Positions 4,413-64,000 of a stretch of 64,000 bases of DNA are shown here, one piece after another. The notes below the pieces were generated by a model. That model was given only the letters and a program-made list of their open reading frames with translations. It searched no databases and was not told the origin of the DNA. The number at the start of each line of letters is the position of its first letter. Position 1 is the stretch's first letter. The translations under genes and the position numbers were made by a program. This DNA is from Isoetes taiwanensis (lineage: Eukaryota > Streptophyta > Lycopodiopsida > Isoetales > Isoetaceae): positions 11,090,740 through 11,154,739 of the forward strand of contig JAJEKV010000008.1 in the NCBI GenBank assembly GCA_021234155.1, given 5' to 3'.

Positions 4413-4899
4413 TTAATTGTAAGGCATGCAATGTAATGGTTTTTGTTATAGGTTAAAAAAATTTTTTGCCCCTTCGGGGCTAATTAATGTTAATAGTAAT
4501 TATATGTTGGTTGTTATATGTCATTTGGGGGATGTTAGAGTGATAAAAAGACGAGAGATTAAAGTCCAAAAGTATTTTTATTTAGTGCATTTTCAATGCG
4601 AAGTTTGAATCTTGCTTTGCAATTGAAATTGTCATTCCAATTGTCATTTCGGTGTGTGCCTCTTACGAAATACAAGTAGAAAACAATGTGTTAAGTAAAA
4701 AAGAGAATGCAAGAAGATTGTTAAACCGCTATTTTCATGCAGCTAGGCTGAAAGAAAGGTTATATTATCTTCATTGTTTAAAAATAATAATTCACTAGAG
4801 ATCATGTGTTCTTGGATTAAAATGAAGGTACTTCCACTACCTCCATTTTAATCCAAGATTTCCCATCATTATCTTTCCCGTGCTTGTTGCTCATGGTAG

Positions 4900-6110
4900 A
4901 AGAGATAAACCCTGATGTCTCTACATAAGCACATGGTAGAAGAGATAAACCCTGGTGTCTCTACTAGTTCCATTGCTTTGGCATGGGCACCAATAAGGTT
5001 ATCAAAGTCAGTAATACCATCCTGTAAAAGCTCATGAAACACCCCAGCCTGAACTATTTTACCATCACGCAGAACTTGGAAGCATTTTTTAGTGTGAGAC
5101 CATGAGTATATTATGCAGATTGTTACAATCTGCATGCTATTAGTGATTAAACCAACTCTGATCAAATCAACTTCAGGAAAATTTCCATTAGAGAAAGAAG
5201 GTACCACTATATGGTCTGCTTCTGGCAAAAAGTCAACTTGATGTGTCACCAAAACTATGGTTTTTGAGGCCAAAGCTCCAAGAATGCATTTCTGCCAAGA
5301 TTAAAAGTTAAAGTATAAAAAAATATTTCTGTATCAGTCTGCACATCAACTGCACTAAATGGATCATCAAAAAGATAGATATCTGCATCTTGATAGATGG
5401 CTCGAGCAAGCTGTACTCTCTGCTTTTGCCCACCACTTAAGTTGATTCCCCTTTCTCCAATCTCTGTTTGGTCTCTACATGCAAATAATTCTAGATCCTT
5501 TTTTAGTTGACAAACTTCAAGTACTCTCTCATATTTTGTTCTATTCATTGTACTCCCAAAGAGTATATTATCTTCAACTGTACCACTTTGAATCCATGCT
5601 GTTTGGCCAACATATGATGTGCTACCTTGTATGATAACCTTCCAGAGTTCATAAAAATCAAAACCAGCCAATTCAAAATGAAATATATAGTTGAATCAAA
5701 ACTGACCTCTCCAGATAATTTTGGTATCTCCCCAAGAATACAAGAAAGAAGACTCGATTTCCCTACCCCAACGCCGCCACAAACTGCCACCATTGTTCCC
5801 TCTAGTATACATAGATCCAGATTTTTAAGAGTTTGTCTGGCTTCAGATGCATCCCAACTGAATGTTCCACCACTAATATCGATAGCAATACCAGTAGTCT
5901 TGGGTAGCCTTGTGACAGTATCTTTTTGTATCTCCTGTTCTTCAAAATAACTACAAAGCCGATCAAGAGATATGTTTGCCTAGGCGAATCCAGAAATGAA
6001 ATTTGGAAATCTGCTCAACGGTTCCTGAAGCACCTGAATTGTTGCCAGTACAGAAAGCACTCTCCCAGCTGTGAGTGGTATTCTTGCACTGCGACTCGTA
6101 GGAAACCAAC
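4900..6110 (-). pseudogene. ABCC (MRP-type) ABC transporter gene fragment, first nucleotide-binding domain
   Basis: Minus-strand pieces in order resemble the end of the first membrane domain (QVLQEPLSRFPNFISGFA), the linker (ANISLDRLCSYFEE) and NBD1. NBD1 shows Walker A GGVGVGKSS, the Q-loop region [20 protein letters not shown], the signature LSGGQKQR, Walker [13 protein letters not shown] and the switch His VTHQVDFLPEAD. Pieces are separated by short intron-like gaps with usable GT/AG borders (about 5,630-5,703 and 5,085-5,200). An in-frame TAG at 5,980-5,982 replaces a likely CAG Gln codon. Full ABCC proteins are about 1,500 residues; only about 300 are here. Its place inside the CACTA, with introns kept, points to capture of genomic DNA. 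A 35-bp duplication (CATGGTAGAAGAGATAAACC) lies at 4,892-4,950. Confidence 0.85.
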
Positions 6111-30256: not shown

Positions 30257-30335
30257 CATTTGACACAAAGATGTCACTAGACCTATGGCTTGTCACAAGG
30301 GTTGACACCATACCCCCCATCCTCTTGTAGTGACA

Positions 30336-30660
30336 CCAACCAAGCTACGCACAGATGCAAGGCTTGCTGCCACAAGAGCGGCCAAGCACCAGGATACACA
30401 TGAAGAAGCAACTGCTGGCTAGTCAATCTCACCTAAAACAGAGCCCTGACCCAATCCCAGGCAGCCTACAAGTGACGGCATAAAACCAGACAATGCTCCA
30501 CAGTCTCACGATGAAGGCCACAACAAGGGCAGAGAGGGCTCACACCCGGCCTAAACTTGACCCCTTTGGGTTTGCTAAAGCATAACTCACAAGAATGGGA
30601 GCTGATACATTTTTGTATATTTTTCATGTGAAGCATGACTGTCATATATGAGAAACTCCT
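30336..30660 (-). pseudogene. LINE zinc-binding (zf-RVT) fragment, right piece
   Basis: Minus strand: SCELCFSKPKGVKFRPGVSP, then CPCCGLHRETVEHCLVLC, the Cys/His pattern C-x2-C ... C-x2-C-x3-E-x2-x-H-x4-C of the zf-RVT domain at the end of plant LINE reverse transcriptases. It continues across the CACTA insertion into 634-296. Frameshifted and 5'-truncated. Confidence 0.75.
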
Positions 30661-30689
30661 AGAAAGGGTTTGGCTAGTTTTTTTTATGC

Positions 30690-31334
30690 TTGATTTTACA
30701 TGATTTTTTTTGTGAGCCTTCAAAATGCCCTTTAATGGTCCATCACGGGACAGGTCTAGTGTTAAAGCCTAAATGTAGAGAATTTTTGAAGGCAGCTATG
30801 ATAGATTTTGATATAGCAACTTGGTCTTCCATGAACTATGTTAATGTCAATGAAGTTGTTGATGGAATAGCATCAGAACTCAAACATGACTTTGTGTTTG
30901 TGTGGGACTAGTCTCATTTCATCGAGATGCCTTTCAAGAGGCCAATTAGATGTGACAAACCATTATACATGAAACCATTGTCTAATATTTTTAGTGAATA
31001 TCCACAATATGAGGGAAAGTTCATATTGTTGGATGATAGTATTCAGAAAACATTTGCTTCTCCACCTTTCACATCTCTTTTAGTGCCTGAGTTCAATTTG
31101 GATGTAGATGATTATGTATTGAAACAGGTCCTGCCAGTGATTGAGGATGTAGCACGTGTTGATGATTTCTCTTTCATTCTTAAGCCACATTGTAGACCAG
31201 AGCAGTACACAAAGGAGGCACTCAAGATTTTGGAAACCACTGGGAGAGGAGACAACTGGATTGGTGAAGGCCTATTGCAATGGTCAGCTGCAGTGGTTAA
31301 GGGAAACCTTTCAAAATTCAGGTTACAGGGATAG
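30690..31334 (+). pseudogene. FCP1-like phosphatase fragment, copy 1
   Basis: Reads LKPKCREFLKAAMIDFDIAT, WSSMNYVNVNEVVDGIASEL, HDFVFVWD, a TAG at 30,909-30,911 (for the usual Gln), then SHFIEMPFKRPIRCDKPLYM, SNIFSEYPQYEGKFILLDDS and LLVPEFNLDVDDYVLKQVLP. The WSS and LLDDS motifs and their spacing match the FCP1/NIF HAD fold and the phosphatase gene of the Sola-like element. The nucleophile motif DxNG upstream is missing. It is not full length and has a stop. Confidence 0.75.
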
Positions 31335-31734
31335 ATTTCAGGAATTGATATGATTACCATGTTCACTACAGGTTTTCAAACTTCAGGACACAGGTTTAGA
31401 TGAATTCAGATCTACTTACATGTTTGCAGTGATACTTACTATATGTCGATATAGTGATATAGGGTTTACAGAGGCAGATATGCCACTGATACAGTGCTAG
31501 GCAGATATGCCTTACTACATTGATAGCTTGATATGTAATTCAGGCAGCTAAATGCCACAATTTTGTAAATTTCATTCTCAATACCAAATCAGGTTATAAG
31601 TGCCTTGCATTGCTTTCCATTGATTTCATTTCTTTCCATTGTTCTGTATATAGTTAAACTATGAACAGTATATGAATCAATACCAAATGAATAGTATTTT
31701 ACTCAATACCAAATGAACAGTAACTTTAGGCCAA

Positions 31735-32330
31735 GTTTGGGAGGCTACATATAATTTGTTGGCATGTATCTTCAGCCATAATATACAAGCTAGAATCCTC
31801 TTCATCTACAGTCATGTCAAAGTTATCTAATCTCATAAGGTTGTTGTACACACTAGCTACAGGCTGGTCATCCAATAGTACAAATTTGAGTCCAGACCTA
31901 CCTGTTTATAGTAATGTCCTGAGACAATAACAGATTCAACTCCAAATACATTTCTCCATCCATCCACATAATCTTCAAGTAAAGTGTTCTTTGCTTCTAT
32001 GCACTTCAATACATAAAAATCTACCCCCTCCTCATGACCTTATTCTGCATTGATAGCAAAGTTATCTCCCACCTCACTCATAGAACTAGCTATGTCATAG
32101 TCTTCCTCATCATCCTCTTCTTCATGCTCATTTTTTATCTGCAAGTCCTCATTAGTAGCATCAATTGTTGCTTTATGCTCCTTCAGCTTTAGTTTAGTAT
32201 TTTCCTAACCATCAATACGAGACTTGGTGCTGTGTGAATCCCATTTAAATTGAACACAATTTTCACAGAAGCATGAGAGCAGTCTATAGGCTACCTTCTA
32301 GCGTTGAATTCCTTACGCTCAGTATCAAAC
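31735..32330 (-). pseudogene. Sola-like element protein, C-terminal relic, copy 1
   Basis: Minus strand: CSCFCENCVQFKWDSHSTKS (compare CLSCFCSFCMDHNWDSC at 12.85 kb), an acidic linker NEHEEEDDEEDYDIASS, SEVGDNFAINAE, a stop, then EGVDFYVLKCIEAKNTLLED and DGWRNVFGVESVIVSGHYY (compare DGWGQKFGVHEVILSGLYY at 13.1 kb). It is convergent with the FCP1-like fragment, exactly as in the intact element at 10.3-28.6 kb. Confidence 0.7.
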
Positions 32331-34285
32331 TACTGATTACAACGAAAGGTCGTAAACCCTGAAGTCTTCGCGAATGAGTTCTCCCGAAAATGTTGTAGCT
32401 CCCCACGCTACAGCAACAGGCTGTCCAGTTGATTTAGCTCTCCACACTACAGCAACAGGCTGCAAGCATCTGGGCATAAGCCTTTGTATGATCATAATCG
32501 AATTGTAGCTGAAGCATGTGAGAAGCTGCAACACAGAGGATTCAGACAATCTCCCAGGCCAGCTTTAGGTAAAGTGCTTGGTGGTCTGAGTCGACCTCTT
32601 TATCTCTATTGTCCGTGCCAATGCGAAGGTGGTTGGCTAGATGCATATCTTATAATCCACCACAACTGGATCCGCCCACTGGTTTTCTTGCCAGAAAGCA
32701 TAGCTGGCACAGGAGGGCCATTGCGCTAATTCACTACAGATGGCCAAATCAAAGATGATGCACATCTGAAGCAAATGTTTGCCAAAGGGCATGACTAGAT
32801 GGTTTCTGTAGTCCGATGTTCATGGCCAAGCAGCTTCTGCTGGGCAGAGTTGTAAAATGTTTTCTGCCAAAGCGTCAAACTTTATTAGGTGTTCTATTTT
32901 TACAACTAGTTGAAACGTCAAAAACTTTGAACTCAAATACATTTTTGTTTGCTTGTCTTTAAGTTATGGCAGTCCACCACATTTTTTTGGAAGTGTGAAT
33001 GCGGGCACATGCTAAAGTTGCAAGGAAGTTTTCGTCAAAACCATTACAATATTTTAGCAAAACTAGAATGGTGAAGGTGATAATGCCAAAAGAAAAACTA
33101 GATTCCAAAATGAATTGGACATATAGATAAAATAAACTATTACTTTGGAATGAAAAGAAGAGAGAATCTACATAAAGAAGTTATTCTATTTAATTGTGTG
33201 ATAGATAATCTTTATTTAATGCATATGCTAAGTGGCATTTTTGTCATGTTGTAATTCTCCATAATTCAAGAAACAATCTTAAATCGGAGCCATAAATAAT
33301 GGCAAGTACATTTGAACTACTTTGCAAAGAAAGAGAAGTTAGGTGACTATGTCCATTCAAGCATAAACGTAGATGCCACAATATTAACAACCGTATAGAA
33401 GCCAGATGATCTGCTAGCACTAGATACGACTCCCTACTTTTTTCTTATGCATATAGTTGGGAGAGTGACCTTTGAGAGCAGATAATGTTACTTTGTGGAT
33501 TGTGATTCTAATAATTCTCCACGTGCATGATATGGAAGGGCCGTCGGAGGGCCGTATGGGAATGTCCTTAACTTATCTCTATGTGATGCCACATTGCATG
33601 GTGGTTTGGATCTCCAAAGATTATTCTCTCAGCGGATCACACTTTATATGGTAAACTTATCAGTATCAGCACTTTATATGGTAAACTTATCAGCATCAGA
33701 ATTTGACTTCCCATGACACTATAGGTTAAACTTATCAGAATCTGGGTGTTGTGGCGTTCCTTAGCATCTCTCTTTTGACAGATGTGTTGTGTAACATGAG
33801 ATGGAGACCCGAGGGAGGCATAGCAGAGCCAGAAGATGCAGTTTTGCCTCGTGAGACAAGGAACAATGTGTGGTGAAGCAATGTCAAAGAGCATGGAATA
33901 GAGAAGGACACAAAACCCGAGCTTCACTAGGTGCAAACAAGTTGCAAGGATGAGATTTGACAAAAGGGAAATGAATGGGGCCCAAGTCCCCCAACTTTTG
34001 GTGGATGCCTTGTCATTCTCAGGACATATACAGCGAGGGCCATTATGCCAACTTGGACCCCCATATACCCCTCCTATAATGTATCGCAACATTCTACCCT
34101 TACGAATACAATACCCATCCATACGCCGCTTCTTCTCTTGCGCGTGAGAACCTACTTTCTGCTTGCTTTTTACGTCCATATCTTCATTTAGCCCACTTCT
34201 CTCTCCGGCCGGAGAGATGGGGGTTTTACTTGATTTTCTAGCACGTTTTCGACGAGATTTAGACATCTCTGCCATAGCTTAGCTC
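32331..34285. other. Unknown DNA of duplication unit 1
   Basis: Includes AGCAACAGGCTG words repeated at 32,414 and 32,451, and T/A-rich stretches. A minus-strand frame from 34,275 (MAEMSKSRRKRARKSSKTPI) starts beside what in unit 2 is the IQD promoter side. It reads basic at first, then low-quality. It may be a divergent small gene or antisense noise; I do not recognise it. Confidence 0.35.
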
Positions 34286-34361
34286 CATTTGACACAAAGA
34301 TGTCACTGGACCTATGGCTTGTCACAAGGGTTGACACTATACCCCCCATCCTCATGTAGTG

Positions 34362-34700
34362 ACACCAACCAAGCCACGCACAAATGCAAGGCTTGCTGCC
34401 GCAAGAGCGGCCAAGCACCAGGATACACATGAAGCAGCAACTGCTGGCTAGTCAATCTCACCTAAAACAGAGCCCTGACCCAATCCCAGGCAGCCTGCAA
34501 AGTGAGGGCATAAAACCAGACAATGCTCCACAGTCTCACGATGAAGGCCACAACAATGGCAGAGAGGGCTCACACCCGGCCTAAACTTGACCCCTTTGGG
34601 TTTGCTAAAGCATAACTCACAAGAATGGGAGCTGATACATTTTTGTATATTTTTCATGTGAAGCATGACTGTCATATATGAAAAACTCCTAGAAAGGGTT
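34362..34700 (-). pseudogene. LINE zf-RVT fragment, duplicated copy
   Basis: Same as 30,336-30,660: SCELCFSKPKGVKFRPGVSP, CHCCGLHRETVEHCLVLC, then PHFAGCLGLGQGSVLGEID and a TAG. It keeps the frame slightly longer than copy 1. Confidence 0.75.
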
Positions 34701-35351
34701 TGGCTAGTTTTTATATGCTTGATTTTACATGAATTTTTTTGTGAGCCTTCAAAATGCCTTTAATGGTCCATCACGGGATAGGTCTAGTGTTAAAGCCTAA
34801 ATGTAGAGATTTTTTGAAGGCAGCTATGATAGATTTTGATATAGCAACTTGGTCTTCCATGAACTATGTTAATGTCAATGAAGTTGTTGATGGAATAGCA
34901 TCAGAACTCAAATATGACTTTGTGTTTGTGTGGGACTAGTCTCATTTCATCGAGATGCCTTTCAAGAGGCCAATTAGATGTGACAAACCATTATACATGA
35001 AACCATTGTCTAATATTTTTAGTGAATATCCATAATATGAGGGAAATTGCATAATGTTGGATGATAGTATTCAGAAAACATTTGCTTCTCCACCTTTTAG
35101 TGCCTGAGTTCAATTTGGATGTAGATGATTATGTATTGAAATAGGTCCTGCCAGTGATTGAGGATGTAGCACGTGTTGATGATTTCTCTTTCATTCTTAA
35201 GCCACATTGTAGACCAGAGCAGTACACAAAGGAGGCACTCAAGATTTTGGAAACCACTGGGAGAGGAGACAACTGGATTGGTGAAGGCCTATTGCAATGG
35301 TCAGCTGCAGTGGTTAAGGGAAACCTTTCAAAATTCAGGTTACAGGGATAG
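34700..35351 (+). pseudogene. FCP1-like phosphatase fragment, copy 2
   Basis: As copy 1, with the shared TAG (34,937-34,939) after VFVWD, plus further decay: TAA for CAA in the YPQYEG region and TAG for CAG before VLPVIED. The shared stop shows that the gene was dead before duplication; the private stops came after. Confidence 0.75.
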
Positions 35352-35754
35352 ATTTTAAGAATTGATATGATTACCATGTTAACTACAGGTTTTCAAACTT
35401 CGGGACACAGGTTTAGATGAATTCAGATCTACTTACATGTTTGCAGTGATACTTATTATAGGTTATATATGTCGATATAGTGATATAGGGTTTACAGAGG
35501 CAGATATGCCACTGATACAGTGATAGGCAGATATGCCTTACTACATTGATAGCTTGATATGTAATTCAGGCAGCTAAATGCCACAATTTTGTAAATTTCA
35601 TTCTCAATACCAAATCAGGTTATAAGTGCCTTGCATTGCTTTCCATTGATTTCATTTCTTTCCATTGTTTCTGTATATAGTCAAACTATGAACAGTATTT
35701 GAATCAATACCAAATGAATAGTATTTTACTCAATGCCAAATGAATAGTAACTTT

Positions 35755-36350
35755 AGGCCAAGTTTGGGAGGCTACATATAATTTGTTGGCATGTATCTTC
35801 AGCCATAATATACAAGCTAACATCCTCTTCATCTACAGTCATGTCAAAGTTATCTAATCTCATAAGGTTGTTGTACACACTAGCTACAGGCTGGTCATCC
35901 AATAGTACAAATTTGAGTCCAGACCTACCTGTTTATAGTAATGTCCTGAGACAATAACAGATTCAACTCCAAATACATTTCTCCATCCATCCACATAATC
36001 TTCAAGTAAAGTGTTCTTTGCTTCTATGCACTTCAATAGATAAAAATCTACCCCCTCCTCACGACCTTATTCTGCATTGATAGCAAAGTTATCTCCCACC
36101 TCACTCATAGAACTAGCTATGTCATAGTCTTCCTCATCATCCTCTTCTTCATGCTCATTTTTTATCTGCAAGTCCTCATTAGTAGCATCAATTGTTGCTT
36201 TATGCTCCTTCAGCTTTAGTTTAGTATTCTCCTAACCATCAATACGAGACTTGGTGCTGTGTGAGTCCCATTTAAATTGAACACAATTTTCACAGAAGCG
36301 AGAGCAGTCTATAGGCTACCTTCTAGCGTTTGAATTCCTTAATCTCAGCA
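35755..36350 (-). pseudogene. Sola-like element protein, C-terminal relic, copy 2
   Basis: The duplicated counterpart of 31,735-32,330 with the same Cys-rich, acidic and GVDFY blocks and the same stop after NAE. Confidence 0.7.
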
Positions 36351-38267
36351 TCAAACTACTGATTACAAGGAAAGGTTGTAAACCCTTCGCGAATGAGTTC
36401 TCTCGAAAATGTTGTAGCTCCCCACGCTACAGCAACAGGCTGTCCAGTTGATTTAGCTCTCCACACTACAGCAACAGGCTGCAAGCATCTGGGCATAAGC
36501 CTTTGTATGATCATAATCGAATTGTAGCTGAAGCATGTGAGAAGCTGCAACACAGAGGATTCGGACAGTCTCCCAGGCCAGCTTTAGGTAAAGTGCTTGG
36601 TGGTCTGAGTTGACCTCTTCATCTCTATTGCCCGTGCCGATGCGAAGGTGGTTGGCTAGATGCATATCTTATAATCCACCACAACTGGATCCGCCCACTG
36701 GTTTTCTTGCCGGCAAGCATAGCTGGCAGAGGAGGGCCATTGCGCTAATCCACTACAGATGGCCAAATCAAAGATGATGCAGATCTGAAGCAAATGTTTG
36801 CCAAAGGGCATGACTGGATGGGTTCTGTGATCCGATGTTCGTGGCCAAGCAGCTTCTGCTGGGCAGAGCTGTAAAATGTTTTCTGCTAAAGCGTCAAACT
36901 TTATTAGGTGTTCTATTTTTACAACTAGTTGAAACGTCAAAAACTTTGAACTCAAATACATTTTTGTTTGCTTGTCTTTAAGTTATGGCAGTCCACCACA
37001 TTTTTTTGGAAGTGTGAATGCAGGCACATGCTAAAGTTGCAAGGGAGTTTTTGTCAAAACCATTACAATATTTTAGCAAAACTAGAATGGTGTAGGTGAT
37101 AATGCCAAAAGAAAAACTAGATTCCAAAATGAATTGGACATATAGATAAAATAAACTATTACTTTGGAATGAAAAGAACATAAAGAAGTTATTCTATTTA
37201 ATTGTGTGATAGATAATCTTTATTTAATGCATATGCTAAGTGGCATTTTTGTCATGTTGTAATTCTCCATAATTCAAGAAACAATCTTAAATCGGAGCCA
37301 TAAATAATGGCAAGTACATTTGAACTACTTTGCAAAGAAAGAGAAGTTAGGTGACTATGTCCATTCAAGCATAAACGTAGATGCTACAATATTAACAACC
37401 GTATAGAAGCCAGATGATCTGCTGGCACTAGATACGACTCCCTACTTTTTTCTTGTGCATATAGTTGGGAGAGTGACCTTTGAGAGCAGATAATGTTACT
37501 TTGTGGATTGTGATTCTAATAATTCTCCACGTGGCATGATATGGAAGGGCCGTATGGGAATGTCCTTAACTTGAACAGCCTACAAGGCATCTTTATGTGA
37601 TGCCACATTGCATGGTGATTTGGATCTCCAAAGATTATTCTCTGAGCGGATCACACTTTATATGGTAAACTTATCAGCATCAGCATTTGACTTCCCATGA
37701 AACTATAGCTATAGGTTAAACTTATCGGAATCTGGGTGTTGTGGCGTTCCTTAGCATCTACCCTTTGACAGATGTGTTGTGTAACATGAGATGGAGACTC
37801 TGAGGGAGACATAGCAGAGCCAGAAGATGCATTTTCGCCTCGTGAGACAAGGAACAATGTGTGGTGAAGCAATGTCAAAGAGCATGGAATAGTGAAGGAG
37901 ACAAAACACGAGCTTCACTAGTTGCAGGGATGAGATTTGACAAAAGGGAAATGAATGGGGCCCAAGTCCCCCAACTTTTGGTGGATGCCTTGTCATTCTC
38001 AGGACATATACAGCGAGGGCCATTATGCCAACTTGGGCCCCCGTATACCCCTCCTATACTGTATCGCAACATTCTACCCTTACGAATACGTACCCATACG
38101 CTGCTTCTCTTGCAGGCGTGAGAACCTCTGCTCTGCTCTGCTTTTTCTGTCCATATCTTCATTTCGCCCACTTCTCTCTCCGTCGAAGAGAAATGGGGAT
38201 TCGCCCAGTTTTCTAGCACGTTCTCTGATGCCGGATTTAGACATCTCTGCCATAGCTTAGCTCCATT
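36351..38267. other. Unknown DNA of duplication unit 2
   Basis: Counterpart of 32,331-34,285. The minus-strand frame from 38,253 here reads MAEMSKSGIRERARKLGESP; its sequence and reading frame differ from unit 1, which argues against selection on it. Confidence 0.4.
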
Positions 38268-38862
38268 TTGGCCTTATTTATCACATCGAGCTTCAGCTCC
38301 TTTTGCCGCTCCAGCTCGTTTCTTAGCCGGTAAGTTTCTCTTCCCCTCCGCATTGCATTTCTAAGGTATTTTTCTTAGCGTGTGTGCGATTGTGAATCGG
38401 ATTTACTGGTATCCCACTCTAATTTACCGTTTAGAATGATCACATTGTTGTTTCATTGAATAGCCGTGGATGCTCTTTTGTAGATCTAAGTTTTAGCTTT
38501 GCTGTTACTAGCTCTGCCATAACTTTTGGCCCATCGTACGGGGAAATGTCACGCTCTGTATATCTATCCACTTCTGTATGATCACAGAAAAATTAAACAA
38601 CATCATCGACGTTCGTTAACTAGCTTCTTGTTGAAAGGCATAAAATATCGTTAAAGTTCCACAGCCTCAGATTAGTTAGGACTCTCCCTTTTTAGCTACT
38701 CCCTATTATATATATGTCAAGCTCTATTTCAGGTGGAATAATGTCTAAAAGCCAGTTGATTAAGTGGCTGCCGTTCCCAAGATAATATATAATTATTATG
38801 TAACTGCACTCTCACAATTTCTTTGATAGTGTCTTGCAGCAATTTGCATGTGAACCTGAGCA
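38268..38862 (+). promoter_or_regulatory. Leader of the IQD gene with a 5' UTR intron
   Basis: A donor (CTTAGCCG/GTAAGTTTCTC, about 38,330) and an acceptor (GTCTTGCAG, 38,839) define an intron of about 509 bp before the start codon at 38,863. Leader introns are common in plant IQD genes. The promoter itself must lie in or at the edge of the duplicated unit. Confidence 0.6.
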
Positions 38863-48600: not shown

Positions 48601-49188
48601 AAGAGTGTTCGATTACTTCTCCTGTGCTCCTGTTGGCAGAAGACCAAACAATAGTGCCTGAAGGGGATTCTTGGTAGGCTAGACCGCCTACTCAATCCTA
48701 TTCTGGCTGCAGCCCCAGCATCAAGGTCCCGTTGAAGGTGGAGGTGACGAACATGCACAAACAGGCCAAGCCCAACATAAATCACCTGAGATTGCTGATG
48801 TTGACTACGAGGCTATAGTTCGACCTCGACAATCTCGATGAAGCTGAGTTCACTACCCATGCATTTGATTTTGATCCCATCAGCGGTGTTGGGCCATCTA
48901 ATCCTATTGCTGGCACTGAGGAGCCTGATACAGCAAAGAAAGACTTGTAAATAATGTGTACCTCAAATGTAAAAATAATATTTTTTTGTATATAAATTTA
49001 TCGAACTCATAGATTAATCATGTCTCTAAGGATATGCAAATCTTGCTTGTTATAAAATTAATCTTGTTCCTAGCTGTATTTTCTGCATTATCATGTTTCT
49101 AATGGCGCCAGATAATGGCACTTCACATGAACACACATAATGGTGCCATAATAGCTCAAAAATTGGTCATAAAAAAGACTAAAAAATA
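48601..49188. other. No recognised gene; short AATGGCGCC-type repeats
   Basis: Continuation of decayed coding-like DNA to about 48,950 (VNYEAIVRP-like scraps), then AT-rich sequence with AATGGCGCCA / AATGGTGCCA words also present at 46,905-47,060. Confidence 0.35.
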
Positions 49189-49888
49189 ATTTCGTCCCTA
49201 ATCAGAATCACGAAATTTCTCATTTTAATGAAATTATGCTTTACTCATGATCTTTAATGGGCATTTTAAAAAGAAAAAAAGCTCTTATCTTGGCTATTCT
49301 TCCTCTATTTTTGTATAGCCCATAAAAGAGGACTTGAATTATTGGGGTTGTCATATAGGCATATACTTTGTGCAAGTTACAAAGTTAGTTGTCCACTATG
49401 TATAGATTACAGAAATTAAAGTTGTGTGCAACATCCCATCCCATTTACGTTATCGTTATCGCAGTAAATATCGGACGCTGACATGTTATACCCATGGGCA
49501 TATCCGTGGTATATCCGTGTCTTTGACATGTTATAGCCACGGCCAAAAAAAATTACACGGCGTTTTTTTGGACAGCGGATTTTTTGCCATTTAAGGCTGG
49601 CTATAACATGTCAGCGTCCGACATTTACCACGATGGAGATTTACGTTGAGGAGCTTTCGACCATAAACCTAAACAGCTGTTTGAAATGAGCGGATGAGAT
49701 GGCAAATAAGGACAAGATACTATGGAGATGTCCTACTTTACACAATTCCATTATCTTTGAAAGATGGGCGGAGACCAACTTTAGCACGAGATAGAGAGCC
49801 AAATGGAATTGAGCCACATATGTATTGCTGATAAGCAAGGGGAGGACCCACCCAACAACTAGATCCTCAGACGTTTGCTTGGACACGC
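49189..49888. repeat. Duplicate of the region upstream of the MEE60-like gene (copy 1)
   Basis: Matches 56,508-57,020 in direct orientation with few changes (AATCACGAAATTTCTCATTT through CAGACGTTTGCTTGGACACG), except for the 187-bp MITE. The match ends at CACGCATT (49,888), where the LTR-element ORF sequence begins. Copy 2 is in place upstream of a gene, so copy 1 is likely the derived one. Confidence 0.9.
49452..49638. mobile_element. 187-bp Mutator-type MITE with 9-bp TSD and known empty site
   Basis: TSD ATTTACGTT at 49,443-49,451 and 49,639-49,647. The paralogous site near 56,768 has a single ATTTACGTT with no insertion. Inverted termini share GTAAATRTCGGACGCTGACA then TGTTATA. No coding capacity. 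Confidence 0.92.
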
Positions 49889-50926
49889 ATTCTCCAAGTT
49901 GATGCTGCTAGAAGCTTCTCGCATACTCATGGAGCGCACTAGTCTGCTGGAGCTTGGGCCTCTTCCCGGTTTGTACAACCTGCTTTGGATCTCCTGGAAT
50001 TCCTCTTCTGGGATGACGGGTTGCTGCTGCTGATACATCTGCCTTATCTGTTGGTAAGCTTGAATGTCTGACATAGTTTCCCTGGCGTAGGAATGTCGCT
50101 CGGCTACTTCCCTTGGAATTTCCTGGTAATCATAGTCGATGAAGTCACTGCCCTGTTCTTGTGCAACTAGGCCTATGAGCTCATCGATCCTGAGACCTTC
50201 TTCTTGGCAATAGGGAAGGTTGAGGATGTCGGTGGCGAGTATGTACTCCTCGCCGTCGATGATGACTGGGGTCAGGGCCGTGATACCAACAGGCGGTTCG
50301 AAATCTCGCCTTAATACTTCTTCTTGTCGTGCTATACGCCTCTCCATCCTTCTTGCCTCCCTCATTTCCCAACTTGGGTTCTCCTCCTCTTGCTCTTCAT
50401 AATCCTGCTCAATCTGTAACATAGGTGTTCCTGATGTGGAGCCGTAGTATTCGTAGTCCGTGGTCTCGATCTCGTGGATGCCTATCTGGTGCCTGCGAGT
50501 GTTGAGAGGCGCCAGATCCAAAGGTTGAATTGACGGCTCCCCTGGTTGGTTGACTGCCTTGTACTGCATGAACAAAGCTAAGGCTGCTTGGGCTGAGAGG
50601 TATCTATGCCTATGATGCTTACAGGTCATGTAGTTTGGCATGTTTCTGGTTCTATCCCACAGCCTACTCTTGCCCCTGGATCCCCCACCTATGGCTTGGG
50701 TAAGAGAGTCTAAGGAAACCCATTTCCCTCCCCTAGGTGGCAAGCTAACTTCCCAGGGCAGGATCTGTTGATCATATTGGCAAATAATGTCGGTGTAATA
50801 GGGAGTTCTAGTCAGAGTGGCATGGAGATCAAAGAAATGATCAAAGACATGGAAGACTTGATCAGCAGGACAATCACGGATGTGATTGGCCTCATTGTAC
50901 CATCTAACAAAGCTTGAGGGCGCCAT
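49859..50926 (-). CDS. Intact 355-codon ORF of the truncated LTR element, unknown function
   Basis: Minus strand, starting MAPSSFVRWYNEANHIRDCP. The N-terminal 150 residues are globular-looking and Trp/Pro/His-bearing (KWVSLDSLTQAIGG, CKHHRHRYLSAQAALALFMQ). A Glu-rich helical middle (EQDYEEQEEENPSWEMREAR) and a Gln-rich segment (MYQQQQPVIPEEE) follow. There is no CCHC knuckle, protease or polymerase motif. The last nine codons (ACPSKRLRI) lie in the duplicated flank, so the native C-terminus is lost or altered. An uninterrupted frame of this length amid so much decay suggests a young insertion or selection. It may be a Gag-like or accessory protein. Confidence 0.55.
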   Translation of the reverse strand: MAPSSFVRWYNEANHIRDCPADQVFHVFDHFFDLHATLTRTPYYTDIICQYDQQILPWEVSLPPRGGKWVSLDSLTQAIGGGSRGKSRLWDRTRNMPNYMTCKHHRHRYLSAQAALALFMQYKAVNQPGEPSIQPLDLAPLNTRRHQIGIHEIETTDYEYYGSTSGTPMLQIEQDYEEQEEENPSWEMREARRMERRIARQEEVLRRDFEPPVGITALTPVIIDGEEYILATDILNLPYCQEEGLRIDELIGLVAQEQGSDFIDYDYQEIPREVAERHSYARETMSDIQAYQQIRQMYQQQQPVIPEEEFQEIQSRLYKPGRGPSSSRLVRSMSMREASSSINLENACPSKRLRI

Positions 50927-51645
50927 TGAGCAGAGGGGAGTATAAAAAATGGCTGATGAGGATAAGCAAGGAGCTAGAAAATCGCCAAAAGGGCTGAGAG
51001 CAGTTTTGATGGGGAGAAAATGACAAATGAGGTCCCTTTTTATAGACTAGGGGTGCCTCGGGTTCCGTGCAGAAGGGTTCTTGATGGGGAAGGCTTTTGT
51101 TCCATGGCTATGGGTGTCCAAATGGGCTACCATGAAGTGCAATTCTAAGCAAAACAAGGCAAGAAACACTACATGGGAGTTTGTTAGATGAAAATTGGTC
51201 AATTTGGGCAAAATTGGGCGAAACCGGGTCAGAGCGCGCAAATCGCCTCTGCGTACCGAACGCAGGTGGTTTCTGCGCGGTGTGACCCGATTTGGGTCTT
51301 TTCTGGGTTCTGCTAAAGATTTTTGGAAAATTTAAGATGCTAACATGACTACTTGGGTGATTCTAATCTAACTAGGAATTTTTCTCGGCCAAAATGGACA
51401 AAGATTGGGGCCAAGATGGCGAAACTGGGTCAGAGCGCGCAAATCGCCTCTGCGTACCGAACGCAGGAGGGTCCTGCGCGGTGTGACCTGATTTCGCGGG
51501 TTCGCGCCTTTTTTGGTTCTAAAATTTTTTCTAAAAATTATCTAATGCAAAGAACAAATTATCTAATACCAATTTGCAAAACAAAAGTTTATATTTATAA
51601 GGGAAAATTTTATCAATTACATCAATTTATACAAAATTTGTATCC
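50927..51645. repeat. Spacer between the two ORFs, with a 46-bp duplication
   Basis: GGGTCAGAGCGCGCAAATCG then CCTCTGCGTACCGAACGCAGG occurs at 51,225-51,268 and 51,427-51,468, about 200 bp apart. The repeats are GC-rich in an AT-rich context. Confidence 0.65.
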
Positions 51646-52781
51646 TCAAGGGTATTCCTTGCGGATACGGCGCGCCAAGTATAGGTCCTTGGGCATCAAC
51701 GTTACCCTCTTCGCATGAATAGCGCAGAGGTTTCCTTCCTCGAACAATTGGGTGAGCTCGGCCTCCGCAGCTACCTGCAACACCCTTGTCGTGAGCGACG
51801 TCACTCTATAGTCGGTGACGAACTCCTGCATCACCTCTCGCATAAGCCGCTCGAAAGGTGCCTTCCTAATCAGGAGATTAGTGCACTGTTGAAAGTGCTT
51901 AATCTCCCGAAAAACTCGGGCATGCCTAGAGTTTGGTCCGTGGTGGACCTTCTTGGGCTTCTCCGGTCGTGGCAGCGGCGGCTTGAGCTGGTTCTTTGCT
52001 GGTCGGCCCCCCTTCACGTAGCGTTGGACGTTCTGGCGGCAGTACCAGTCGTTATACCTCATCCAACGACGGAGGTATTCTTTGTACGCCTTGAGGCGGC
52101 GTCTGAAGAGGCGCTCCTCCTTCAAAGCGAACGGTCGCTCGCCCGCCTTCTGCTTATTGACCACCTTAGGTGGCTTGGGCCACTTCGGGTAAGGTGGTCT
52201 TGCATCGGGGTTGGAGGACTCCCCCGCGACCTCGTCCTCTTCCTCCTCTGCTTCCTCTTCTGGATCTCCTCCTCCTTCTTCCACCACTTCCTCTTCTTCG
52301 CGTCGGGGAGGCTCCTCGATCACTACGGTCCCTCGGGGCCGATCGTTCCTCCTCTTAGTGCGCCTCTCCCTCTCCCTCAGCTCTCGCTCTCGCTCCCTCT
52401 TCTTTCTTGCCTCCTGCTCTTCCGGCCACTCCGCAACTTTCTCCTTGCCCTTCTTCTTGGGCACTGAAGGGCCCGCCTTTTGAGTTTGGTGCTGGGGCTG
52501 CTCTTCCTCCTGCTCCACTTCTGTGTCCGACGAGGGTCCAAAGTGGCGGGACTCGCCAGTTCTCTGGGTGCCCGCCGACGACAAACTGCTGCTGCTGCTG
52601 GGCGCCTCCTCTTCCGAGACGTGGAAGGTGTCTTCACTGCTGCTGGAGGGGAACTCCCCTTCACCCGGCTTAGATCGAAGGTGTTCGGGGATTTGCTTGG
52701 TGTGCCGACCTGCTGTGCCTGCGCCATCGAGAGCGTAGGCCTCTCCCCGGCCTTCCTAGCTGTCTGCTTGGTTCGAGCCAT
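51646..52781 (-). CDS. Histone H3-like protein with very long N-terminal tail, in an LTR element
   Basis: The minus-strand ATG at 52,781 gives [10 protein letters not shown], identical to the start of canonical H3 including K4 and K9, then [15 protein letters not shown] frame change between about 52,750 and 52,600 (indel or tiny intron) leads to a Ser/Glu-rich and Arg/Glu-rich tail, a Pro/Lys segment ([16 protein letters not shown]) and a helical block. The last 95 residues are a full H3 fold: [75 protein letters not shown], stop. Loop 1 has canonical H3 length, not the longer CENH3 loop. Canonical H3 is 136 residues; this is near 370. It would act in nucleosomes if expressed. It lies after the primer-binding site, as a first ORF. 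Confidence 0.8.
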
Positions 52782-53332
52782 ACTTAACGTTGTGGAAAAT
52801 GGATGACGTAAGGCTGAGCAAGAGAGAGATGGTGGAGAAAAAGGTTGGAGGGAAAATGAGGTGTCAGGGATATTTAAAAAGGAGGGTCCCTAGGAATATT
52901 CTCCTACCATTAATAGGCCTACTTATTAGCCCCCCTTACCCTTATTATTAATACATATTTAATTTCTAATACACATACTTAAATTCGTATTATACCTTAG
53001 AATTTTTGATTTTCCTAATAGTTTGAAGTATTAATTATAGATTTGCGCCATTTTTCACTCGGGTCTCAGATTGGCATAATTCTTCGACCCATTTTAGGTG
53101 AAACTTGATGCAGATGCATAATTTTCACTCCAATTTTACTAGAAAATAAACTTGGCTCATTCATTTCTTCGTCTAACACCTAACCTAATTTCGAAGCCAC
53201 TACTTAGGAGAAAAATTTTTCTCCTATTTTCGAGGTTCGATGGTGGGAAATTTTTATTTCACACCCCTATAGGCCTGTTAGACTACTTTCATGGTTATGG
53301 TCAGTGCTAGTTCCTGGTCAACCAAGAACATC
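52782..53332 (-). other. Untranslated leader of the LTR element
   Basis: About 550 bp between the H3-like start codon and the primer-binding site, AT-rich and with no long frame. It is the expected place for a retroelement leader. Confidence 0.5.
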
Positions 53333-53344
53333 GCTCTGATACCA
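53333..53344 (-). promoter_or_regulatory. Primer-binding site for initiator Met-tRNA
   Basis: On the minus strand TGGTATCAGAGC lies one base inside the LTR end. It is complementary to the 3' end of plant initiator Met-tRNA, the usual primer of plant Ty3/gypsy and copia elements. It fixes the element orientation as minus and the adjacent LTR as the 5' LTR. Confidence 0.85.
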
Positions 53345-53345
53345 T

Positions 53346-54933
53346 TGTGACGCTCCCTACTAAATATACGGCTCCCAGCCGTACACTCCGTAGGAAATCC
53401 CCCATCCGGTCCCTCGACCGCACGGGCCCTCCGTCTACCGCGCCCTTCCCCTATGGGCTCCTATCACAGCGGAAGCATAAACATCATCAGAACTAGCAAT
53501 AACAATACATCACACTACCTCGAAGGGTAGCTCATCCACATATCCATAGGTGCAAAGAACATAATCATATGCCATAAAACATGAGAGCTCCTACCCATGG
53601 CTCCGACACGTAAGGAAGTCGACTGACTGGATAGGCCTCAAGATAGAGCAGACCGAGTCATAACAATGGCGGGGGTGGCTTAAGACAATGGCTAGGGTTG
53701 ACCACTCCATCCGCCCCTCCTGTGCATACTTTGCAGATGGGCTAGATCAAGCTGTGGCATGACTCTAACCTTCCGGATACGCAGTCCCATGGCATCACCC
53801 ATCGGGACTACTCCAGGTTGCATCTCCCTGGTCCGACGAGGTAAGAAGGGTTGCATCTCCCCTTCCCGGGGTCTAGAGGCTCCACGGGCAGCTAGAGAAT
53901 CGTGACGGCACACGATTCGTACCCGACTGAACCCCCCAAAACAAGAGCCAAGCTGACACTTGCAACTCTTGAGAGGCAGGGCAGCACCATTGCCCCAGGA
54001 GGTGTCGGACCCATGCTCGGCCCACACGAAGTGACCGACCATAAGCCTAGCCCACTATGGGATCCCCCGAAGCCCCCACTCGGCAGGGATCCACCCTCCA
54101 TCTTGCCTCTAGCCCCGTTGTGTAGTGCTGAGTCACGTCATAGCTTCCATAGCCCGGTGGGTTCCTATGCACAGGCCGCAAATAATAGGAACTAAGATCT
54201 GCACTAGGAGCATACTACATATGGCCCTAGGTCTCTACCCCCTTCCCAATACAAGAGGAGCACATGATCAACCAATATCACATACATCACATCATGATCA
54301 ATATCATATGAACATCTTAACCTAATCATACATATCTAACTAACAGTTAGGGTTCCTTGATTAGGGTTCAAGATGTTCAACAAAGGATCTAGGGTGGCTC
54401 TACTCTAGACACGAATTACTACCCCATCTGGAGTGCTAACTTCCAGATGAACTAACATGAACTCTACTCAACCTACCTCCTCCAGAAGCGCTTCCTCCCA
54501 TCCCTGGCGTCTCCATGCTCCTCGATGTGGGTCGAAGGCTTGCTCCCTCTACGATCATACACACCTTCCAGGGGCTGCTGCTCCAGGCTAGACTATGACG
54601 AACGGTGCTCGAAACGGGGTTTCGGGCACGTGGGTGAGAGTTCAGGTGCTAGGTCAAGGAAAAGGGTCTAGGGTTAGGGTTAGAGCCAATATAGGTGTGG
54701 GTCCACCTGGGATGCCACATGGCACCACTAGGATGAGGCCGTGTGGCGGTTGCTCAATAGGATAAGGCCATGTGGAAATGGGCCTTATCCTAAGGTTATC
54801 TAAGTTAAACTCTTAACTTAGATGTGCACCCCTTGCCACTTTCTAAGACATACAAGGCTTCATACGTAGACTTTTATGGTGACGGGTCCAGGAATATACG
54901 TATTTATGGCGTATATTCCCCTGGAACGTCACA
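53346..54933 (-). mobile_element. LTR (5' LTR in element orientation), 1,588 bp
   Basis: Bounded by TGTGACG and CGTCACA, perfect inverted ends of the TG...CA type, next to a primer-binding site. The opposite LTR is not present: internal sequence runs only to about 49,889, where it meets duplicated genomic DNA. The element is therefore truncated at its 3' side and lacks recognisable pol. The outer flank CAACA would be the TSD if the other end were found. Confidence 0.8.
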
Positions 54934-56507
54934 CAACACGGCTAGCACAATTTTTTTATCTTTGATCGAGGAGGTTAACAAGTTTCAGCTCGTAGGAACT
55001 CGCAGTGGAAGAAAGGGAGTAGTGTGATGACTATATCCTCAATTCCATGATCATCACTCTTGTGAAATGTAATTAAAAGGAGTCAAGCTTTTGACCTTTT
55101 AGTTAAGTTCCATTGGTCTTGCAAATATGTTATTCATGTTCATCAATGATTATATGATCGATGGCCTATAGTATGTGAGAACATCCTTCAAGGTGTCATT
55201 TTCCTGCATAGCTGCGAAGCGACATCATGCATGGCAGCCAAGTGCAAGCATGCACCTATGTTAGCTGGCAATCATATGCCGTCCAAGCTCATGCGGTGGA
55301 GTTCACATCAATTCTATCCAATTTACAATAGCGTGTATAAGACTATTAAAAAGAAGAGGAAAAGAAGGGGAAGGGGGAGGGGAGGGGAGGGGGGAGGTGG
55401 GGGATCATAGGAATCTACAATTGGATGAAGGGCATATTTGACCACATGAATATTTGTACCAGATGAAGTGTACAAGTTTTCAACAAAGCCTTTCTCTTTC
55501 TACCTTACACTTACCAACATTAGTACTGTCGCATCAGGTGCTTTCTGGCATGCTCTGATATCACGATGTCTAGCTTGAAATGCGACATCGCGACGGGGCA
55601 AGTTTGGAATTGGTGCCTGGAAAGGGTTTTTTTTGTTCTGACACTCTTCGAATCCTCGAGGAAACCCTACACGCAAGCTCTCAACCACTTCAAAGGCATC
55701 AGGTCTTGTGCCTTAGATGGAAACATTCACATTGATCACATATTTTAATAACAAATGAACAAGGTCACTTAAAAGTCTAAACGTCAGAATAGGGCAAGAA
55801 ACGACAAAGGCACCAATTTTAATATTCTCTCTCTATTTGAGTTATCCCTTACATCATCTCTGTGTATATGTAGCGCATTACCAACCCATGTGAGTTCAAA
55901 ATGGTCATGTCTTATTTCTAGACCTTACAGTTAACCTTAGGCAATTTAGGCGGTCCTGTCTGCTTCTAAATGTTTAAGTGCTGATAAGGTGATAAATCAT
56001 TAGTTATGCTTCAGATAAAGAGGAGTTATACAGGGGAATGTAGGTTTGTCCTTCACTCCAGCTAGATCATGGGATACAGGTCGACCCTATTTCCATTCTG
56101 CTGCTTAGGTGGCAGCACAATATTGCACCCCAGTAAAAAAGAGCAGCGCTATGCTTATTGTGTATTGACACTTATGAAGCTTGTGCTTTTGAAACATGTG
56201 TTGATTGTGCATTTGCTTGTGAGCATAAATGCCATTAAATTTGCTATGTTTGCAAGTTGTTGAACCTTTAGCTCATAAAAGCCCTTTTGCCTCTAAAATC
56301 ATCTACTAACATCTGAACAATGAATTTCGAAGTAGACTATGATTGTCTTAATAAAACTCCAGGATTAATGCACTTAGTAGAAATATACTCCAAGAAGTCT
56401 GGAGACGTGTAAATATTTTTTTTTTGGGCAAAACCTGCTAGTGTTTCGTAGGCTCTCTAAACCTAAGTTCGAAGTAACAGAAGAAATCAATTTTTGAGGC
56501 ATCAAAA
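54934..56507. other. Intergenic; G-rich tract at 55,368-55,405
   Basis: No gene recognised. GGGAAGGGGGAGGGGAGGGG and following G-runs could form a G-quadruplex. The rest is unremarkable. Confidence 0.45.
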
Positions 56508-57020
56508 ACAATTTCGTCTCCCTAACCAGAATCACGAAATTTCTCATTTTAATGAAATTATTATGCTTTATGATCTTTAATGGGCATTTAAAAAAGAAAA
56601 AAAAGCTCTTATCTTGGCTATTCTTCCTCTATTTTTGTATAGGCCATAAAAGAGGACTTGAATTATTGGGGTTGTCATACTAGGCATATACTTTGTGCAA
56701 GTTACAAAGTTAGTTGTCCACTATGTATAGATTACAGAAATTAAAGTTGTGTGCAACATCCCATCCCATTTACGTTGAGGAGCTTTCGACCATAAACCTA
56801 AACAACTGTTTGAAATGAGCGGATGAGATGGCAAATAAAGGACAAGACACTATGGAGATGTCCTACTTTACACAATTCCATTATCTTTGAAAGATGGGCG
56901 GAGACCAACTTTAGCACGAGATAGAGAGCCAAATGGAATTGAGCCACATATGTATTGGTGATAAGCAAGGTGAGGACCCACCCAACAGCTAGATCCTCAG
57001 ACGTTTGCTTGGACACGCAT
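56508..57020. repeat. Duplicated upstream region of the MEE60-like gene (copy 2, in place)
   Basis: The direct counterpart of 49,189-49,888. It lacks the MITE and shows the empty target ATTTACGTT. It ends 54 bp before the start codon at 57,075, so it probably includes the promoter and leader. Confidence 0.9.
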
Positions 57021-57074
57021 TTTAGAATCAGACTCATATAAGGACTGCGAATTAATCACTCAAAATAGTAAGCA

Positions 57075-57759
57075 ATGTCTGGTTTGGAAGATCAAAGCTC
57101 CCAAAATTTGGAAAGCCATGATGGTCACAACAAGAAGTAAGTACAGAATTTCAAATTTTAAGCATGGATGGAATGCCAATAAGTATCTAATCTATTCATC
57201 ACAAATATGCAGATTATTGAATGAATTTGGATCGATAAAGAGGAGATGGAAAGGAGGGGGCACTTCAGTTCATGTAACAGCGCTTGATGCGGTGGTGAAT
57301 GTAAATTCATTTTTCACAGTGGCAGTCTTTTTGGGTCTCTCTCTGACAGCCCCAAATCAAGCAGTTTCTCTAGTCTCAGAATGCAGCACAGGGAAAGATA
57401 ATCAGAAATACCTTCTTCTGTTCGAAGTGCTTTCGTTCAGCTGCTTCTTATTGTCCACACTTGTTGCCCATGGAATGAAGCTTTTCATTGTGTTTGTGAA
57501 TGCCAGAGATAAAGATAATTCTACCACATCTAACGTAAATGGCAGCTTTCTCAGATGTGGGATGCTTATATCAGCCATTGGCTCCATTGTTGGCACAGTT
57601 TTCCTTGTCCTCTCCATGGTCTGTATTATTCAACTTCGATTTGGATCAGTGCATTGTGATGATACTTGGGCTGACAAGACCATTATTCCTATGGTTATCC
57701 TGGTGGGAATTGGTCTTGTGGTCTTCATAGTCGCTGCAATTTATGACTTCTTGCATTAA
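57075..57759 (+). CDS. MEE60-like plant membrane protein, four predicted helices, two exons
   Basis: Exon 1 57,075-57,136 (MSGLEDQSSQNLESHDGHNK) and exon 2 57,243-57,759 join in phase through a 106-bp GT/AG intron to give 192 residues. After a short hydrophilic N-terminus comes RWKGGGTSVHVTALDAVVNV, then hydrophobic segments at about residues 40-60 (SFFTVAVFLGLSL), 80-105 (LLLFEVLSFSCFLLSTLVAH), 130-160 (GMLISAIGSIVGTVFLVLSM) and 170-190 (PMVILVGIGLVVFIVAAIYD). The VHVTALD..VNVNS motif and layout recall the plant-specific MEE60-type proteins, whose role is poorly known. No frame damage is visible, so this is likely a working gene. The family name is from memory of its motif. Confidence 0.7.
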
Positions 57760-63170: not shown

Positions 63171-63419
63171 TCTATGATTTCTGAACATCTGATATTTCGA
63201 AAAAACTTTTAACTTATGTACTAATATTTGGATGCCATGAGGCCATCCAGATAAATTTTGTATAGAACTTACTTGTATGACCCCCTTATGTGCTGATATT
63301 ATGACTCACTTATGTGCTGTGAATTGGATAAGACTTATGTGCTGAGAAAATTTTGTATATGACACTTATTTTGAAATGTAATGTATATGCTACTTATTTC
63401 GTTTGTGCTACTTAAGCTA
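63171..63419. other. 3' flank of the 61-kb gene
   Basis: AT-rich, with repeated TTATGTGCTG words (63,288, 63,311 and 63,336). Probable 3' UTR. Confidence 0.4.
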
Positions 63420-64000
63420 TGAATGTATGTATAAAGTATGCATGTATACATGTATAAGGTATACATTGTATATAATGTATAAGGTATGAAGCAAGTATGT
63501 ATAAGTACGTATAAGGTATACTGTATAAGGTATGAACCAAGTATACTATATAAGGTATGAAGTCTGAAGGTATACTGCATGTATAAGGTATGTAGCAAGT
63601 ATACTGTATGTATAAAGTATGAAGCAAGTATACTATATGTATATGGTATGTAGCAAGTATACGGTATGTATAAGGTATAAAAAGCAAGTGTACTATGTGT
63701 ATAACGTATGTAGCAAGTATACTATATGTATAAAGTATGAAGCAAGTATACTTGTATATGGTATGTAGCAAGTATACTGTATGTATAAGGTACAAAGTAA
63801 GTGTACTGTATGTATAAGGTATGTAGCAAGTATACTGTATGTATAAGGTATAAAGCAACAAGTATACGGTATGTATAAGATATAAAGCAAGTGTAATGTA
63901 TGTATAAGGTATGTAGCAAGTATACTTCTTGTATAAGGTATAAAGCAAGTATACTATATGTATAGGGTATAAAGCAAGTATACTGTATGTATAAGGTTTA
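63420..64000. repeat. Minisatellite of about 29-bp units, runs off the window
   Basis: About 20 units of AAGCAAGTATACTGTATGTA then TAAGGTATG, with variants. Its Tyr/Leu/Thr-rich open frames on the minus strand are by-products of the repeat. Confidence 0.9.

Follow-up and report, generated by a model that had tools for sequence, protein, structure and literature searches.

A histone H3 variant encoded by chromovirus retrotransposons in the quillwort Isoetes taiwanensis

On the minus strand of a 64-kb stretch of the Isoetes taiwanensis genome (contig JAJEKV010000008.1; the window, below, means this whole stretch), an open reading frame (ORF) that ends in a histone H3 fold lies just inside a long terminal repeat (LTR). 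Does this ORF belong to the plant or to a retrotransposon, and, if the latter, what would a retrotransposon do with a histone? An earlier note on this DNA had proposed that an LTR element captured an H3 gene and had named, as the alternative, a host variant gene lying by chance beside a partial LTR. We find that the window element is a truncated minus-strand copy of a chromovirus, i.e., a Ty3/Gypsy LTR retrotransposon with an integrase chromodomain, and that the proposed capture is supported by LTR pairs around the ORF, high copy number, and purifying selection. Given the same three lines of evidence, we read the H3 ORF (ORF1) as an element-encoded, selected variant rather than a host gene beside an LTR, and we regard both the identity of the element and the selection on ORF1 as virtually certain. 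The parts of the window copy that bear on this argument are as follows.

53346 to 54933, minus strand: 5' LTR, 1588 bp, with ends TGTGACG...CGTCACA (the same LTR flanks both sides in 6 of 10 fetched copies).
53333 to 53344, minus strand: primer binding site TGGTATCAGAGC, one base inside the LTR, read from the window sequence.
52782 to 53345, minus strand: untranslated leader from LTR to ORF1, about 550 bases, with the primer site within it (used in a DNA search of the genome).
52752 to 52781, minus strand: start of ORF1, with its ATG at 52781, encoding Met plus ARTKQTARK (H3 tail residues 1 to 9).
51646 to 52755, minus strand: ORF1 in the frame of the fold, comprising a Ser-rich and acidic linker, a basic pre-fold region, the H3 fold, and the stop.
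51649 to 51912, minus strand: H3 histone fold, 88 residues, of canonical length (Pfam, PDB, and alignment).

The earlier note had described a complete H3 fold of canonical length at the end of a minus-strand frame, an upstream ATG leading into ARTKQTARK with K4 and K9, and, on the same strand, an LTR with TG...CA ends followed by a Met-tRNA primer site and a leader of about 550 bp. Each of these was borne out at the coordinates above, the tail being encoded in a second frame. The fold matched the Pfam Histone family at an E value of 6.9e-28, and its top PDB match was an H3 chain (E value, 5.3e-29). It aligned without gaps to a reference Arabidopsis H3.1 sequence, with 54 of 85 residues identical (63.5%), whereas identity to five CENH3/CENP-A reference sequences was 47 to 54% and required gaps (Arabidopsis, maize, human, Cse4, and Cnp1; human CENP-A was checked against PDB). 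Loop 1 has the canonical H3 length and not the longer form of the CENH3 references, and membership in CENH3 was rejected on that basis. Changes relative to H3 cluster outside loop 2 and helix 3 (3 of 24 positions within, 28 of 61 outside; Fisher P = 0.005, with boundaries set after the alignment had been viewed).

To place the ORF in its genomic context, we searched the assembly of 1,658,258,908 bases in 1110 contigs. With the 88-residue fold as the query, the best 150 of 8513 first-look candidates (a loose figure) were scored; all of them, the window included, were 93 to 100% identical to the query. We refer to this group as clade A. Its matches are spread over very many contigs, and among the best 150, 4 have an internal stop and 43 have an open frame no shorter than 365 amino acids. 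A DNA pattern for Met plus ARTKQTARK, which also allows the Ser codons AGY at Arg places, matched the genome 516 + 535 = 1051 times, while the reversed pattern matched 0 times. A DNA search with the leader yielded 40 scored places, the best of 1853 first-look candidates, and by hand comparison, 13 of these 40 have a fold in the best-150 list (the window is included in both counts). Ten long-frame copies were then selected, each fetched as two adjoining 10-kb stretches. Full-length copies with the H3 ORF between two LTRs, which the earlier note had proposed to look for, were seen in 6 of the 10 (C1054, C1025, C1053, C1072, C1039, and C1036); the other 4 show one LTR within the fetched stretch. 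Five LTR pairs with TG...CA ends were measured, giving elements of 13.05, 13.09, and 13.43 kb and two longer ones of 17.7 and 18.7 kb. Target duplications of 5 bp, checked in five two-LTR copies (C1039 excluded), were exact in 3, held 4 of 5 bases in 1, and were absent in 1. The copy without a target duplication, C1054, also has an LTR divergence of 0.11, and its LTR pair is perhaps wrong; the other four pairs have Kimura two-parameter divergences of 0.013, 0.026, 0.034, and 0.036. These LTR pairs and target duplications show that clade A moved as a unit with its H3 ORF.

The open frames beyond the H3 ORF identify clade A as a chromovirus. Pfam searches, which were run on the real open frames of six copies (L013, L014, and L021 to L024), so that the pol results refer to clade A, found Retrotrans_gag, Ty3_capsid, a retroviral protease, RVT_1, RNase H, the integrase zinc finger and core, and SH3_Tf2-1, all 3' of a second extra ORF (ORF2). 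In one copy (L022), a Chromo domain was found at the integrase C terminus (E value, 6.7e-11). ORF2 lies between the H3 ORF and gag; in L013, it is an open frame of 561 amino acids (4153 to 5835, minus strand), and in other copies it is open to differing lengths. It matched no Pfam family above the cut-off. The primer site, which we take to be of the initiator Met-tRNA type, lies one base past the LTR in all nine other copies examined, with one changed base in three of them. In the part of the literature consulted, Met-tRNA priming is described as a habit of most chromoviruses and not of non-chromoviruses (PMC6317226), and the primer site thus agrees with chromovirus identity.

Of the 10 long-frame copies, 9 encode the tail and the fold in a single frame of 366 to 379 residues. 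The window copy is broken in this respect, with the ARTKQTARK tail and the H3 fold in different reading frames. The family as a whole does not share this frame change near 52.7 kb, and a programmed frameshift or intron there was rejected because intact copies have a single frame. The first ten residues (Met plus ARTKQTARK) are exact in 6 of the 10 copies, carry one substitution in 3, and are absent in 1. The element tail keeps K4 and K9, and the position of S10 in H3 is occupied by F or Y in nine copies. S10, K14, K27, and K36 of the H3 tail are absent in these 9 copies, and a linker of roughly 270 to 280 residues stands instead between the N-terminal tail and the fold; it begins with a Ser-rich stretch, continues with basic and acidic sequence, and ends in a conserved pre-fold stretch.

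Clade A is not alone: two other high-copy clades carry H3 folds. A search with a reference Arabidopsis H3 returned, among the best 150 matches, 15 host-type matches at 97 to 98% and 135 at 84 to 87%. The host-type H3 genes are loci separate from the element (15 matches, 10 of them read), while the larger group constitutes clade B. Clade B ORFs (L039 to L045), with frames of up to 567 amino acids, join a fold about 85% like Arabidopsis H3 to an unrelated N-terminal part some 300 residues long, and in some copies the fold is preceded by a short ARKSG-like stretch. The one clade B ORF scanned against Pfam (L039) gave no match beyond the fold, and BLASTP of a clade B ORF against clade A ORF2 and gag-pol gave no match at an E value of 1. 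At one clade B locus, an LTR end (CATCACA) is followed one base on by the same primer site as in clade A, and its LTR is 63 to 64% like that of A. Clade C was found via its tail; its best 150 scored places are 94 to 100% identical, 6 of them with an internal stop, and the one locus read upstream has a degenerate LTR end, a primer site, and a leader start resembling those of A. Two or three loci represent clade D, and no clear primer site was present upstream of the one locus examined. Altogether, this is a large multiclade set of H3-encoding elements and a stronger finding than the earlier note could know.

In a tree of 22 folds, clades A, C, and D group together (83/81) and clade B lies near H3; a single origin of all elements was not rejected (p-AU of 0.39 in the approximately unbiased test). 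Residue 77 is E in all 10 host H3 genes read (L029 to L038), where the Arabidopsis reference has D, and it is also E in 16 of 18 clade A and 6 of 7 clade B copies, a slight hint that the captured H3 was lycophyte-like. We compared one sequence per clade with host H3 at DNA-contact and H3-H3' positions chosen from known structures; A and B both equal host H3 at 10/10 DNA-contact and 7/7 H3-H3' positions. No clade matches host H3 in the variant patch at 87/89/90; clades A and D have Q and R, respectively, in place of K56, and neither they nor clade C retain K79.

We asked whether ORF1 is maintained by selection, using ratios of nonsynonymous to synonymous divergence (dN/dS) by the method of Nei and Gojobori, summed over pairs. 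Comparing copies in this way had been suggested in the earlier note. Among ORF1 segments from 9 intact copies, dN/dS is 0.044 for residues 1 to 10, 0.207 for residues 11 to 38, 0.193 to 0.195 for the linker, 0.113 for the pre-fold stretch, and 0.032 for the fold. In the pol genes of the fetched copies, it is 0.048 for reverse transcriptase (8 copies, omitting L009 and L019), 0.200 for protease (8 copies), and 0.123 for part of integrase (7 copies), after removal of copies in which no element-strand match spanned half of the query. The values for the fold and the first ten residues are close to that for reverse transcriptase. Over 18 clade A copies, the fold has a dN/dS of 0.027 at a mean dS of 0.98, with 821 differences at first, 158 at second, and 4377 at third codon positions; the corresponding ratios are 0.031 for 7 clade B copies and 0.014 for 10 host H3 genes. 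Since copies were found by protein similarity and were partly picked for long frames, dN in these comparisons is biased low. Two samples are free of this bias, eight sites with different tail DNA spellings and the six top leader-DNA matches outside the fold list. H3-fold matches start 0.8 to 1.1 kb downstream of the tail in all eight chosen sites, several in broken pieces, and a fold lies 0.7 to 0.9 kb downstream of the leader in 6/6, at various stages of decay. In the window copy itself, the two longest minus-strand open frames of the internal region have 385 and 369 codons and are longer than any frame in 1000 first-order Markov simulations (maximum, 274 codons), and a neutral simulation starting from H3 alone is mildly informative (probability of no stop, 0.14; joint probability, 0.016). 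Altogether, the tail and fold of ORF1 are under strong purifying selection.

What the protein does can be approached from what selection has kept. On sequence grounds, we lean towards a nucleosomal role for the element's H3. The H3-variant protein would be imported together with host H4 and incorporated into nucleosomes, where it might mark the element's chromatin, be it freshly made DNA, integrated DNA, or insertion sites. The H3-like tail (with K4 and K9 and with no S10 or later sites) and the altered variant patch could then make this chromatin refractory to normal silencing or, alternatively, could offer the integration complex of the same element a surface on which to dock. That such docking or marking is the purpose of the protein is plausible, at somewhat less than even chances. 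We favor a nucleosomal variant that marks its own DNA or insertion sites because a full fold with its DNA contacts and an exact N terminus are both selected: selection on the whole fold, including the DNA contacts, points to a protein that remains bound to DNA together with H4, and the unaltered N terminus points to contact with readers or writers of H3K4 and H3K9. More tentatively still, the diverged H3 of each of several element clades in one lycophyte may be a nucleosome subunit that the elements provide for themselves. Incorporated into the chromatin of an element or of its target sites, such a protein would confer an epigenetic identity of the element's own making, one recognized by the integrase and misread by host silencing.

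Several observations weigh against this reading. Many copies are decayed, with an open frame below 365 amino acids in 107 of the 150 best fold matches. Among seven loci found by their fold (L002 to L008), an exact ARTKQTARK lies nearby in 4 and is missing in 3, and 2 of the 4 that bear it have the tail and fold in one open frame. In the leader sample (the six copies plus the window and L027), the fold dN/dS is 0.18, decay included, and an exact tail is retained in 2 of the 6 leader-retrieved copies. All seven clade B copies read are without an N-terminal tail and have no MARTK start. Clade C keeps 6/10 DNA-contact and 6/7 H3-H3' positions, and clade D keeps 8/10 and 6/7. Finally, the L022 chromodomain is without the first and third of the cage aromatics Y24, W45, and Y48, with only the W present (assessed by eye). 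It fits type II and not type I (H3K9me-binding) as these are described in the part of PMC3350952 consulted, where type II chromodomains are said to lack cage aromatics and to have a little-known role. Given that two cage aromatics are gone, a simple H3K9-methyl handshake between the chromodomain and the element's own tail is unsupported; the element's H3 might instead be a candidate partner of its type II chromodomain.

Other functions are conceivable. If the protein were a histone-tail decoy, its free ARTKQTARK end would occupy host H3K4 and H3K9 writers and readers and so blunt silencing, with no need to enter nucleosomes. The strong constraint on the first ten residues, the sole part of the tail retained, and the 1051 exact copies of the tail-coding pattern speak for such a decoy. 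However, the fold is even more constrained and keeps its DNA contacts, which would be superfluous for a decoy, and clade B has the fold without the N-terminal tail. Since DNA-contact positions are selected, a nucleosomal role fits better than a pure tail mimic, and we consider the decoy unlikely. A role in packaging or nuclear import, to which we assign the same low chance, would have the H3-like protein, perhaps with host H4, bind cDNA in particles or bring the preintegration complex into the nucleus via the histone import route. Retention of DNA-contact and dimer residues, conservation of the basic pre-fold region, and the placement of the H3 ORF 5' of gag would suit this role, but a separate Gag/capsid is present and packaging does not require an exact H3 N terminus.

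Distinctly less probable is centromere targeting, in which the tail-bearing clades would derive from CENH3 and direct insertion to centromeric chromatin. Like CENH3/CENP-A, these elements have an H3 fold behind a long variable tail, and clades A, C, and D share residues such as HFQ, AxF, and VTL with plant CENH3; these three clades and two plant CENH3 sequences also fall on one side of a branch with 67/78 support (with reference sequences among which there is no lycophyte CENH3). Yet that branch is not firmly placed, matches lie on very many contigs, and the element fold, which is encoded by an LTR element, has no longer loop 1 and in clade A is closer to canonical H3 than to CENH3/CENP-A. The host CENH3 was not identified in a search with Arabidopsis CENH3, for which the best matches were host-type H3 followed by clade-B-like long frames. 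That one element took up H3 and spread it as an unused passenger is very improbable: LTR elements do carry captured gene pieces, as described in the part of PMC13317346 consulted, but passenger capture was rejected on a fold dN/dS of 0.027 to 0.032 at a dS near 1 and on retention of the fold in diverged, high-copy clades, and the tail-DNA and leader-DNA samples argue against sampling as the sole cause of the low dN. The alternative of a host H3 variant gene that merely happens to lie next to a partial LTR, suggested by the single LTR that the window by itself shows, has next to no probability left and is refuted by copy number, LTR pairs around the ORF, target duplications, and host-type H3 genes at separate loci.

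The rest of the window copy includes the following features.

51217 to 51494, no strand assigned: spacer that separates ORF1 from ORF2 and contains a 77-bp direct repeat (units 51217 to 51293 and 51418 to 51494).
49892 to 50926, minus strand: ORF2, the second extra ORF 5' of gag, shortened in this copy.
49639 to 49891, no strand assigned: flanking stretch that is a copy of 56768 to 57021 and abuts the broken element end.

The earlier note had placed the element at 49859 to 54933; its LTR end at 54933 stands, while the internal region already breaks off at about 49892, the copy being truncated. No second LTR of the element was found in the window. The abutting stretch is 97.6% identical to 56768 to 57021, and it contributes the final 10 residues and stop of the window ORF2 (355 amino acids). 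More broadly, a duplicated flank (49182 to 49891 and 56504 to 57021; 95 to 98% identity) lies on either side of the truncated element and upstream of a membrane-protein-like ORF (57118 to 57759), and its first copy has an additional segment with inverted ends (49452 to 49638) that resembles a miniature inverted-repeat transposable element. Elsewhere, the window holds a tandem duplication of about 4 kb at 94% identity (30257 to 38268), a hAT transposase C-terminal dimerization domain (18123 to 18884; Pfam E value, 2.1e-9), and dense short tandem repeats at its end (63415 to 64000). Scans for tRNAs and Rfam families returned no matches.

The closest known elements are plant chromoviruses with a type II chromodomain, among whose lineages are Tekay, CRM, and Reina. 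The quillwort element resembles plant chromoviruses in its LTR, Met-tRNA primer site, order of gag, protease, reverse transcriptase, RNase H, and integrase, and SH3 and chromodomain at the integrase end; it is unlike them in having two extra ORFs 5' of gag, the first an H3 variant, and in its length of about 13 kb. Histones are also encoded by viruses, such as the H4 of bracoviruses and the histones of Marseillevirus and Medusavirus. In these, as in the quillwort element, a mobile or viral genome makes its own core histone, but they belong to large DNA viruses and the quillwort H3 belongs to a retroelement. We know of no virus-encoded histone with the layout of the element's H3 protein, and scans of viral contigs with ORF1 and ORF2 found no relatives. 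The nearest precedent found is an orchid Ty3/Gypsy lineage that carries an ORF for an AlkB-type N6-methyladenosine (m6A) RNA demethylase, according to the part of PMC9289625 consulted. There, too, a host-derived domain is kept as an additional ORF, the difference being that the orchid product is an RNA-acting enzyme and the quillwort product a structural chromatin protein with an H3 N terminus.

As far as the sections consulted describe them, additional ORFs of plant LTR elements lie mostly between pol and the 3' LTR (PMC7264820) and are mostly without known domains (PMC9289625). The quillwort element shares with those of PMC7264820 a conserved extra ORF beside gag-pol, but its H3 ORF, unlike most of them, lies 5' of gag and has a known domain. 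The main text of that review never uses the word "histone", and neither does that of a review on how plant transposons capture genes (PMC13317346) or that of the Isoetes taiwanensis genome paper (PMC8566536). Among the best-ranked papers of the open-licence literature, we found no earlier report of a retroelement-encoded histone. The genome paper states that entries of its repeat library were discarded if BLASTx matched them to plant proteins (PMC8566536), and as a result of such filtering, H3-bearing elements may be overlooked or taken for histone genes.

Through their chromodomains, retrotransposons are known readers of chromatin, and one case carries an eraser of RNA marks. The preserved H3 suggests that these elements use a histone of their own to deal with host chromatin. 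If this is true, a retroelement that supplies a core histone with the lysines involved in silencing would represent a new parasite route to the host epigenome, and the element's H3 would be a candidate partner for type II chromodomains. The hundreds of natural H3 variants in these elements may also show which residues of H3 are retained when the selective regime is a different one.

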